37,228 bases of DNA. Source: Bacteroidota bacterium. Its GTDB lineage: Bacteria; Bacteroidota; Bacteroidia; Chitinophagales; LD1. The notes under the pieces are model-generated. The model was not told where the DNA came from. It did no database searches and worked only from the letters and a program-made list of their open reading frames with translations. This document shows, piece after piece, positions 13,316 to 19,181 of the stretch. The position numbers and the translations under genes are program-made. The DNA lies in NCBI GenBank assembly GCA_947461105.1, contig CANHIG010000006.1, positions 1-37,228 of the forward strand, read 5' to 3'. The first letter of the stretch is position 1. The number at the start of each line of letters is the position of its first letter.

Positions 13316-15586
13316 TTATGTGCCACTAACTATCTTTAGCTTTGCAAATTTGAGCATTATTTTCTTTTCTCCAAAGTTTGGGAAGAAAATAGTTGCTATT
13401 TTGTTAATTGCGTTGCCTTCAAGAAGGATTACTTTTCCTTCACCAAACTTTTCATGTATGACATCTGCACCCATTTGGAGGTTAGAAACATCATCAGGAA
13501 CAAACGGTTCTCCATTGCCCATCATTCTGGCAGGAGCTTGTGCTACTGGCTTTTGCATGAGTGTTTTCCCAAAGCTTGACCTTAATGAACTTTCTGATGT
13601 AGTAGGTCTAGATTCTTTTTGCTGTCCGTAAAATGATAAAACTCCTTCTGGTAATTCTTTTAGAAATCTTGATGGTTCGCTATATTGAATATTTCCAAAC
13701 TTGTAACGAGATGTTGCATAGTTGAGGAATAGTTTCTTTTCAGCTCTGGTGATAGCTACATAGAATAATCTTCGCTCTTCCTCTAAATCATCCATGGAGT
13801 ATAGAGATTGCGATGATGGAAAAAGACCTTCTTCCATGCCTACTACATAAACTACAGGAAACTCAAGTCCTTTTGCAGCATGTGTTGTCATTAGTTTTAC
13901 GCAATCAATATTTTCAGTTTGTTTTTCATCACCTGTTAGTAATGTTATATTTTGAAGATATGTTCCTAAGCCTCTGTCTTCAGTAATCTCGTCACCATCA
14001 GTTACGATATCTTCTTCTACCCATTCTTTGATACCGTTTAATAACTCCTGCAAGTTTTCATATCGAGCAATACCTTCTACTGTTTTATCATTATAGAGTT
14101 CAGCAATTAGTTTTGTTGTTTTACCGATGTGGGTTGCCAGTTCAAAAGCATTTTTCTGCTTTGCCATAGCTCCAAAAGATTGAACCAATAAAACGAATTC
14201 CTGAATCAATTGCTTGGCACGCGGTGGAATTTCATATTTATGAATATGCTCTAAAACATCCCACATTCTAACGCCATCATTGGCAGCATAAATTGTAATC
14301 TTATCTATAGTGGTTTGTCCAATGCCCCGCATTGGGTAATTGATTACCCTTTTTAATGCTTCTTCCTCAAATGGATTGACTGCAAGCTTCAGATATGCAA
14401 GTAGGTCTTTTATTTCTTTTCTTTGGTAGAATGACATACCTCCGTATATCTTGTATGGTATGTTATGTTTTCTAAGCGATTCTTCAAAAGAACGTGACTG
14501 CGCATTAGTTCTATACAATATTGCAAAGTCATTATTTTTGAAGTGGTCGCGCATTTTTAACTCCATAATGCTATCGGCCACCCAACGCCCTTCTTCATTG
14601 TCGGAAGCGGTTTTAACTACCAATATTGCATCTCCCTGATTGTTTGATGTCCAAATCTCTTTCTTGATTTGGTTCTTGTTTTTATGAATCAGCTCATTTG
14701 CAGCCTTTACAATGTTTTTAGTAGATCTGTAATTCTGTTCCAGTTTGAATACTTTCAAATCCGGGAAATCAGATTCGAAATTCAATATGTTGTCAATGGT
14801 TGCTCCCCTGAAGGCATAAATGCTTTGCGCATCATCACCTACTACTGTTATATTTTGATGAGCATCAGCTATACTTTTAATAATGGAGTATTGAAGTTGA
14901 TTCGTATCCTGAAACTCATCAATCAATACATACTTAAATTTGTGTTGATACTTATATAAAACCTGTGGATGATTTTTAATCAGCTCATAAGTCTTTAAAA
15001 GTAAATCATCAAAGTCCATTGCTCCCGATCTGAAGCATCTATCACAATATAGTTTGTAAATATTTGCGGTTTGAGGTCTTTTTGTGTTTTTGTCTTCTGT
15101 AATTAATTCGGGATCATTTGCATAGTCCTCAGGAAAAACCAAAGCGTTTTTACATGCTGATATCCTCCATTGAATCGTAGATGGTTTGTATATTTTATCA
15201 TCAAGATTTAATTCTTTGATAATGCTTTTGATAACAGATTTAGAGTCTTCGGTATCGTATATAGTGAAATTGGACGGATAGCCAATAAATTGGGCATCTG
15301 TTCTGAGCAGTCGTGCAAAAATGGAGTGAAAGGTACCCATGAATAAAGAGCGAGCATCTGTTCCGGCAATTTTTTCAATCCTCTGCCTCATTGCTTCCGA
15401 AGCTTTGTTGGTAAATGTGAGTGCAAGGATTGAAAATGGATTTGCTCCGTTTCTAAGCAAATGAGCTATACGGTAAGTGAGTACTCTGGTTTTGCCTGAC
15501 CCCGGTCCGGCAACTATCATTACCGGGCCATCAATATGCTCTACGGCCTGTTTTTGGACATCATTAAGTTCTTCTAAGTAGTTCAT
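13316..15586 (-). CDS. pcrA: UvrD/PcrA-type superfamily 1 DNA helicase
   Basis: MIVAGPGSGKTRVL Walker A, VLIDEFQDTN, VVGDDAQSIYAFRGA, LMTTHAAKGLEFPVVYVVGMEEGLFP. Confidence 0.95.
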   Translation of the reverse strand: MNYLEELNDVQKQAVEHIDGPVMIVAGPGSGKTRVLTYRIAHLLRNGANPFSILALTFTNKASEAMRQRIEKIAGTDARSLFMGTFHSIFARLLRTDAQFIGYPSNFTIYDTEDSKSVIKSIIKELNLDDKIYKPSTIQWRISACKNALVFPEDYANDPELITEDKNTKRPQTANIYKLYCDRCFRSGAMDFDDLLLKTYELIKNHPQVLYKYQHKFKYVLIDEFQDTNQLQYSIIKSIADAHQNITVVGDDAQSIYAFRGATIDNILNFESDFPDLKVFKLEQNYRSTKNIVKAANELIHKNKNQIKKEIWTSNNQGDAILVVKTASDNEEGRWVADSIMELKMRDHFKNNDFAILYRTNAQSRSFEESLRKHNIPYKIYGGMSFYQRKEIKDLLAYLKLAVNPFEEEALKRVINYPMRGIGQTTIDKITIYAANDGVRMWDVLEHIHKYEIPPRAKQLIQEFVLLVQSFGAMAKQKNAFELATHIGKTTKLIAELYNDKTVEGIARYENLQELLNGIKEWVEEDIVTDGDEITEDRGLGTYLQNITLLTGDEKQTENIDCVKLMTTHAAKGLEFPVVYVVGMEEGLFPSSQSLYSMDDLEEERRLFYVAITRAEKKLFLNYATSRYKFGNIQYSEPSRFLKELPEGVLSFYGQQKESRPTTSESSLRSSFGKTLMQKPVAQAPARMMGNGEPFVPDDVSNLQMGADVIHEKFGEGKVILLEGNAINKIATIFFPNFGEKKIMLKFAKLKIVSGT

Positions 15587-15659: not shown

Positions 15660-15693
15660 TATCGGATAATTAAAAATTTTTTATTATCCGATA
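15660..15693. promoter_or_regulatory. 34-bp near-perfect dyad (candidate operator) upstream of the Fic gene
   Basis: TATCGGATAAT-TAAAAATTTTTT-ATTATCCGATA: 11-bp perfect arms, and the A/T centre is also self-complementary except one T-T position. Confidence 0.75.
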
Positions 15694-15707
15694 AATTTGT
15701 AACTTTG
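15692..15707 (+). promoter_or_regulatory. Two contiguous TAnnTTTG boxes (TAAATTTG, TAACTTTG), candidate Bacteroidota -7 elements for the Fic gene
   Basis: Exact matches to the known Bacteroidota -7 consensus TAnnTTTG immediately before the ATG at 15716. Confidence 0.55.
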
Positions 15708-15715
15708 TGTGAGAT

Positions 15716-16666
15716 ATGTGGAATATAAATTTTAATGAACTATTGGAATTCAATGAAAGCCTTGATCGAATTGCTGAGAAAGAGCAGCAATTGTCGCTCA
15801 AGAGACCATTGCCATCTATAGCAGTCCAAAAAATCAAGGAAGGGTTATTTGTTGAATGGACATACAACTCGAATGGTATAGAAGGAAATACACTCACGCT
15901 CAGAGAAACAAGAGTGGTATTGGAGGAAGGCATGACAGTCAAAGGGAAATCGCTTCGTGAGCATTTTGAAATTACTAACCATCATGATGCTATAGAGTTA
16001 GTTGAGAAAATGGTAGCTGAGAAAAATAGTTTTACTGAGCGCCATATCTTAGATATTCATGAAATGGTGATGCTCAAAATTGAAAAGGAATTTGCAGGCA
16101 GGTACCGTAATGCAGGAGTGCGTATAGTTGGTGCCAATTTTTTACCGCCTAATGCGCGTAAAGTTCAGGATTTGATGTCAGAGTTAGTTGCGTTTGTTAA
16201 TCAAAACCCAATGAATTTGCATGAAGTAATATTAGCAACTGTGTTCCATCATCGGTTTGTTTGGATTCATCCTTTTTTGGATGGTAACGGCAGAACAGTT
16301 AGACTTGTGATGAATCTTATATTAATGCAGCATGGATTTCCGCCTGCCATCATTCTAAAAAATGACAGGAAGAAATATTATGATGCTTTGAATCAAGCAA
16401 ATTCGGGTTCCTATAAAAAGCTTTTATTGTTAGTAATTCAGGCTTTGGAACGCTCTTTGGATATTTATCTCAGTAGTTTTCAGGATACCGATGATGAATA
16501 TTTACCAATTTCCTCTATAGTGATGGAACCTGACATGCCTTATGGCCAGGAATATGTGAGTCTTTTGGCGCGTACAGGAAAAATAGATGCTTATAAGGAA
16601 GGAAGAAACTGGCTCACTACTGAGCGAGCAGTGAAAGAGTATGTAATAAAAAGGAGAAAAAAATAG
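15716..16666 (+). CDS. Fic domain protein, class II-like, with C-terminal HTH-like segment
   Basis: Fic motif HPFLDGNGRTVR (nt 16268-16303) matches HxFx(D/E)GNGRxxR; N-terminal SNGIEG (nt 15869-15886) matches the inhibitory (S/T)xxxE(G/N); C-terminal LLARTGKIDAYKEGRNWLTTERAVKEYV resembles excisionase-like HTH. Confidence 0.93.
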   Translation: MWNINFNELLEFNESLDRIAEKEQQLSLKRPLPSIAVQKIKEGLFVEWTYNSNGIEGNTLTLRETRVVLEEGMTVKGKSLREHFEITNHHDAIELVEKMVAEKNSFTERHILDIHEMVMLKIEKEFAGRYRNAGVRIVGANFLPPNARKVQDLMSELVAFVNQNPMNLHEVILATVFHHRFVWIHPFLDGNGRTVRLVMNLILMQHGFPPAIILKNDRKKYYDALNQANSGSYKKLLLLVIQALERSLDIYLSSFQDTDDEYLPISSIVMEPDMPYGQEYVSLLARTGKIDAYKEGRNWLTTERAVKEYVIKRRKK

Positions 16667-18881: not shown

Positions 18882-19115
18882 TTATTCTTCAGTTTTCTTT
18901 GCTGCCTTTTTTGCCGGAGCTTTTTTAGCTGCTGCTTTTTTTGGAGCTGCTTTTTTTGGAGCTGCTTCTGTTGAAGTTGTTTTTTCTTTTGCAGGTTTAG
19001 CTGCTTTTTTAGCTGAAGGGGCAGCAGCTTTTACAGCTACTTTGCTCGGACGAGCGTTGCCAAATGAGCCTTTAAATCTTTTTCCTTTTTCAGTTCTTTT
19101 ATCTCCTCTTCCCAT
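18882..19115 (-). CDS. 30S ribosomal protein THX-like N-terminus fused to an Ala/Lys/Pro-rich histone H1-like tail
   Basis: MGRGDKRTEKGKRFKGSFGNARPSK resembles THX (MGKGDxxTxRGKxxRGSYGxxRP); remainder is KKAAPKKAAAKKAPAKKAAKK. Confidence 0.8.
   Translation of the reverse strand: MGRGDKRTEKGKRFKGSFGNARPSKVAVKAAAPSAKKAAKPAKEKTTSTEAAPKKAAPKKAAAKKAPAKKAAKKTEE
18931..18960. repeat. Two exact tandem copies of a 15-bp unit GCTGCTTTTTTTGGA (third copy degenerate) within the H1-like tail
   Basis: Read directly: gctgctttttttgga gctgctttttttgga gctgcttctgttgaa. Confidence 0.85.
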
Positions 19116-19181
19116 GATTTTTTAATTTTTAAGATGCACAAACCTAATTAAAATTTGTTTTAACACAAATGAACACTGAAA

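Follow-up and report, generated by a model that had tools for sequence, protein, structure and literature searches.

The fic gene at 15716..16666 (+ strand) of the window, the 37,228-nucleotide stretch of Bacteroidota DNA analysed here, raises the question of how a possibly toxic, standalone enzyme is kept in check. To our knowledge, no regulation has been described for the majority of standalone class II bacterial Fic proteins. The gene encodes a 316-residue standalone class II Fic protein with a predicted C-terminal winged helix-turn-helix (HTH) domain, and its product matches the Fic/DOC family PF02661 with 77.2 bits against a cut-off of 24. Both motifs that the original prediction had described are intact: the catalytic motif HPFLDGNGRTVR, of the HxFx(D/E)GNGRxxR type (16268..16303, + strand, residues 185-196), in which H185, P186, F187, D189-R193 and R196 are invariant in the orthologues, and the class II inhibitory motif SNGIEGN (15869..15889, + strand, residues 52-58), in which S52, E56, G57 and N58 are invariant across 57 sequences. 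The protein is probably self-inhibited in the class II manner, with a FICD-like core and AMPylase/deAMPylase activity. The gene stands alone between neighbours that we take, from their sequences by eye, to be a UvrD/PcrA-like gene and a LOG-like gene.

A conserved dyad upstream of fic

Upstream of the gene lies a dyad of 34 bp at 15660..15693 (no strand assigned), TATCGGATAAT-N12-ATTATCCGATA, with the full sequence TATCGGATAATTAAAAATTTTTTATTATCCGATA. The near-perfect symmetry claimed for it was confirmed, with 16 of 17 symmetric pairs and perfect arms of 11 bp (15660-15670 and 15683-15693), whereas the best even palindrome reached 12-13 of 17 pairs when the whole window was shuffled 20 times with dinucleotides preserved. 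In the 2.5-Mb assembly these arms have no second exact copy.

The original prediction had proposed searching for the dyad upstream of orthologous fic genes. Orthologues were sought at the protein level across bacteria and archaea, each species being represented by one genome, and the best 80 loci (60-68% identity) were taken, the dyad playing no part in the selection. These loci span Flavobacterium, Pedobacter, Chitinophaga-like and other Bacteroidota; a single locus bears the label Phycisphaerales, probably because its contig was misbinned. In all 80 of them, TATCGG (or CATCGG) was found upstream of the fic start with CGATA 28 or 29 bp further on, and the half-sites lie in a common frame of 33/34 bp with 10-11 of 11 positions matching in 80/80 loci; in the same search, 10/11 matches were reached by 2 of 1620 shuffles and by 2 of 1513 other stretches of DNA. 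An information profile of 32 non-redundant loci shows conserved columns TAATATCGGATA and CCGATA around an A/T-rich centre, with unconserved flanks. The left arm (15660..15670, + strand) has a near invariant TATCGG core that is lengthened to TAATATCGG in most orthologues, and the right arm (15683..15693, + strand) has a near invariant CGATA core with a looser inner part (ATCCGATA, ACCGATA or AACGATA). Further full-length orthologues from order and phylum samples also carry the dyad, an exception being G196 (L012), in which the right half-site has been lost. Over a large part of the Bacteroidota the dyad occupies the same position ahead of fic, and a putative operator at essentially every orthologue provides a candidate binding site predicted to the base.

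Additional half-sites were seen at a few loci. In L034 and L035 a perfect TATCCGATA half-site is present inside the first fic codons (encoding LSDI), and at these loci the main dyad has a weak right arm; this is possibly an extra half-site or a coincidence of coding. In G020 the upstream ORF contains another half-site pair (C8:21796-21828, L172), located about 410 bp ahead of the fic operator.

Position of the dyad relative to the promoter

Two tandem TAnnTTTG boxes had been noted between the dyad and the start codon, and both are present. The first, the -7-like match TAAATTTG (15692..15699, + strand), overlaps the end of the dyad and is not conserved; comparison of the orthologues points to the second, TAACTTTG (15700..15707, + strand), as the Bacteroidota -7 box that is conserved in the fic promoter. 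In 77 of 81 loci a TAnnTTTG box is found downstream of the dyad, in most cases 3-8 bp away, and in 74 of those 77 an in-frame start codon follows 3-8 nt past the box. In Flavobacterium johnsoniae, transcription starts 4-5 nt past the -7 box (PMC6847099), which places the predicted start of the fic transcript at 15712..15713 (+ strand) and gives a leader of about 3-4 nt. The same spacing implies that fic leaders among the orthologues would be at most a few nt long; leaderless transcripts are rare in flavobacteria (5.5%, PMC9723704).

With 15700-15707 as the -7 box, the dyad spans approximately -52 to -19 relative to the predicted start and covers the promoter, including the place that the earlier proposal had assigned to a -33 element, and Fic bound at this position would exclude RNA polymerase. 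The distance between dyad and box varies from -2 to +16 bp among the loci, and in three Pedobacter-type loci (L065, L066 and L069) the sole TAnnTTTG box, TATATTTG, lies within the dyad centre, so that the dyad covers the promoter there too. Unlike the other loci, L065 and L069 have a GGAG stretch ahead of the fic ATG.

The variable register favours occlusion of the polymerase over a precise activator geometry, and it bears on the proposal that Fic binds the dyad yet activates its own promoter in the manner of MerR. Such activation would suit both the excisionase/MerR type of the predicted HTH and the missing -33 element, none being evident here, but it needs a fixed geometry, which is difficult to reconcile with a distance of -2 to +16 bp and with a box inside the dyad. 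Moreover, the -33 motif is generally weak in Flavobacterium promoters (PMC6847099), and CccR, a Fic protein considered below, is a repressor; we therefore regard activation as quite unlikely. The same geometry speaks to a function of the inverted repeat as RNA (a hairpin, terminator or attenuator) or as the end of a mobile element, which its A/T centre might bring to mind and which we hold to be very improbable. Lying upstream of the -7 box, the dyad would be outside the fic mRNA, and in 20 of 95 loci only 5-6 of 9 arm positions match, so that pairing is broken while TATCGG and CGATA are retained. Rfam gave no match, and the dyad is present as a single copy with no partner end.

The C-terminal domain and its link to the dyad

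The original prediction had placed an HTH-like segment at the C-terminus and suggested structure prediction of this region. A winged HTH of the excisionase/MerR type (Pfam HTH_17-like) is indeed predicted for residues 262-312 (16499..16651, + strand), built from a helix, a second helix at 278-287, two strands and a final helix, with a pLDDT of 85 for the C-terminal model and 80 for the full-length model. The segment quoted at the time, GKIDAYKEGRNWLTTERAV, corresponds mainly to the wing, and the putative recognition helix is instead QEYVSLLART (residues 278-287; 16547..16576, + strand), which is nearly invariant. The top Foldseek matches of the C-terminal model are lambda Xis-DNA complexes, CbpM, TraN and RdfS, the best of them (Xis-DNA) with a probability of 0.96 and an E-value of 0.16, which is not significant, the domain being small. 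Every one of the 36 sequences in the domain alignment is found by Pfam HTH_17, the window protein with 14.2 bits, below the cut-off of 27. Conservation is 0.92 in the HTH core (275-301), close to that of the Fic motif (0.93), and 0.59 in the linker. The wing residue 297 (R or K) seems to covary with operator positions 7-8 (78/3 against 3/10, p = 8e-9, uncorrected); on a tree built without the HTH this reduces to 2 supported independent changes and is not significant, so a contact of residue 297 with the operator is a lead only.

The dyad goes together with this domain. Fic homologues that end before the C-terminal domain (L016-L027, 39-48% identity) have dyad scores of at most 8.7, which is the level of chance. 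In the phylum sample, 12 of 396 genomes have a strong C-terminal HTH, and the dyad is present in all of them except at the copy in G032, an N-terminally truncated fic remnant. The 81 fic loci show 39 distinct neighbour pairs and 29 distinct upstream genes with no common regulator gene, from which it appears that the site travels with fic. About half of these loci are in a Flavobacterium context with, judging the genes by eye, what is presumably a ClC channel upstream and mostly uvrA downstream. In the window, the UvrD/PcrA-like helicase gene (13316-15586, - strand) adjoins fic, and uvrA is next to fic in many Flavobacterium species; this is probably a coincidence.

We also looked for the site elsewhere in 24 fic-bearing genomes, where the exact pattern TATCGG-N22/23-CGATA gave 124 strand matches compared with 79 when the pattern was reversed. 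The fic sites, counted once per strand, make up about 36 of the surplus and approximately account for it; there is thus no detectable excess of non-fic sites over the reversed-pattern control, and a further target is undetectable in these genomes. Several Flavobacterium genomes have another symmetric site (e.g. G357 C1:2324729), which by eye resembles a shared coding stretch and was judged a coincidence. Among viral contigs there were only distant Fic relatives and 20 matches to the half-site pair, 0 of them before a fic gene, and plasmids searched for the HTH by itself gave no match.

These data also weigh on whether the dyad might be the operator of another regulator that acts on fic from a distant gene. 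Dyads are in many cases the targets of unlinked regulators, and the assignment of this one to Fic is our own deduction. However, no constant neighbour accompanies the dyad in its 39 contexts, other sites show no detectable excess in fic-bearing genomes, and the dyad follows the Fic C-terminal HTH, being absent before homologues without it and present, the truncated copy apart, wherever a strong HTH was found in the phylum sample. We consider a separate regulator unlikely.

From the dyad, its conservation, its promoter position and the HTH prediction, we infer that Fic itself binds the dyad, that it does so as a dimer and that binding represses the promoter. It appears quite probable that the fic locus is a one-gene autoregulated module in which the class II Fic represses its own near-leaderless transcript. 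In this mechanism the excisionase/MerR-type winged HTH would bind the 34-bp dyad, each TATCGGAT half-site probably being taken by one HTH of a Fic dimer, about 25 bp apart; RNA polymerase would be excluded from the fic promoter by the bound protein, and the potentially toxic enzyme would thereby be kept at a low level.

Comparison with other Fic systems

The autorepression originally proposed is the reading best supported by the dyad in 80/80 orthologues, the predicted HTH and the precedent of CccR from Yersinia pseudotuberculosis, a Fic autorepressor that binds as a dimer to an inverted repeat near the -35/-10 boxes of its own promoter (PMC9755527). Both proteins have a Fic domain and a C-terminal HTH (here predicted) on one chain and an inverted repeat at their own promoter, and the Fic core of CccR (PDB 7XUX) is homologous to that of the window protein (E 4e-24, residues 35-239), the match running through the core only. 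Their operators differ, that of CccR being AGATAATCAT-N26-ATGATAATCT over 46 nt (PMC9755527), compared with TATCGGATA-N16-TATCCGATA over 34 bp here. The DNA-binding domain of CccR, of about 105 aa, is not detected by the window HTH profile, and a search of the PDB with this profile found neither CccR nor the SoFic chain at E-values of up to 1; the DNA-binding tails therefore seem to be unrelated. In addition, CccR is a type VI effector, whereas the window Fic gives no hint of secretion. The proposed fic module resembles one known case in Yersinia but has another site and a DNA-binding tail that is apparently of other descent. This suggests that Fic proteins became autorepressors on more than one occasion, by way of different DNA-binding domains (CccR-type and excisionase-type).

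SoFic (PDB 3EQX) is likewise a class II Fic with a C-terminal winged helix, and the PADLOC SoFic profile matches the window core (E 7e-39), but its C-terminal domain is unlike the window HTH (TM 0.34), and the whole protein reaches 42.4 bits on the SoFic equivalog NCBIfam NF046030, against a cut-off of 550. No operator of SoFic was found in the literature examined. The closest solved relatives of the core are human FICD (E 2e-45, ~34% identity) and C. elegans Fic-1, which have the class II motif in common with the window Fic but, unlike it, no HTH and no operator. FICD and Fic-1 are membrane-anchored and carry a TPR domain. The FicTA/VbhTA and Phd-Doc modules are similar in that a Fic/Doc enzyme is restrained and the locus is autoregulated, but they use a separate antitoxin, whereas here the inhibitory helix and the predicted DNA-binding domain are on one chain. 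Indeed, no antitoxin gene is found beside the window fic, which does not fit a FicTA-type module, and the orthologues have no constant neighbour; the operator would explain the restraint of a possibly toxic enzyme without an antitoxin gene.

In CbFic2 of Coxiella burnetii, also a class II Fic, the C-terminal HTH binds DNA and this binding turns AMPylation into deAMPylation; CbFic2 differs from the window Fic in its DeoR-type HTH and DUF4172 N-terminus, and its binding was assayed on random DNA only (PMC10628234). The original prediction had suggested that modification state may be coupled to DNA binding, an idea for which CbFic2 offers an analogy. In one such scheme the operator could also be an allosteric ligand, the operator-bound Fic dimer being AMPylation-silent or deAMPylating while free Fic modifies a target and possibly its own chain; occupancy of the promoter and the state of the enzyme would then be a single switch. 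We put this forward tentatively, as a rather doubtful extension of the autorepression model; the operator opens the question of whether DNA binding and AMPylation state are coupled to study in ordinary laboratory strains.

A Chloroflexota plasmid encodes a Fic homologue (L164, 41% identity) with a related C-terminus and a dyad of its own shortly before the ATG, AGATAATTACTACGAAT-N16-ATTCGTGGTAATTATCT (positions 1379-1428), a near-perfect 50-nt repeat with 17-bp arms that is unrelated to the window dyad. This single case is in line with every HTH lineage having an operator of its own and, within the tentative switch model, would point to Fic-HTH_17 proteins with private operators recurring across phyla. 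In G574, a Fic whose HTH_17-like tail is divergent (L150/L171) has no inverted repeat with arms of at least 7 near its start. Elsewhere in the window, a small ORF (18886-19116, - strand) encodes an alanine/lysine-rich, histone-H1-like tail through an imperfect 15-bp repeat, and its product looks like ribosomal protein bTHX (MGRGDKRTEKGKRFKGSFGNARP...).
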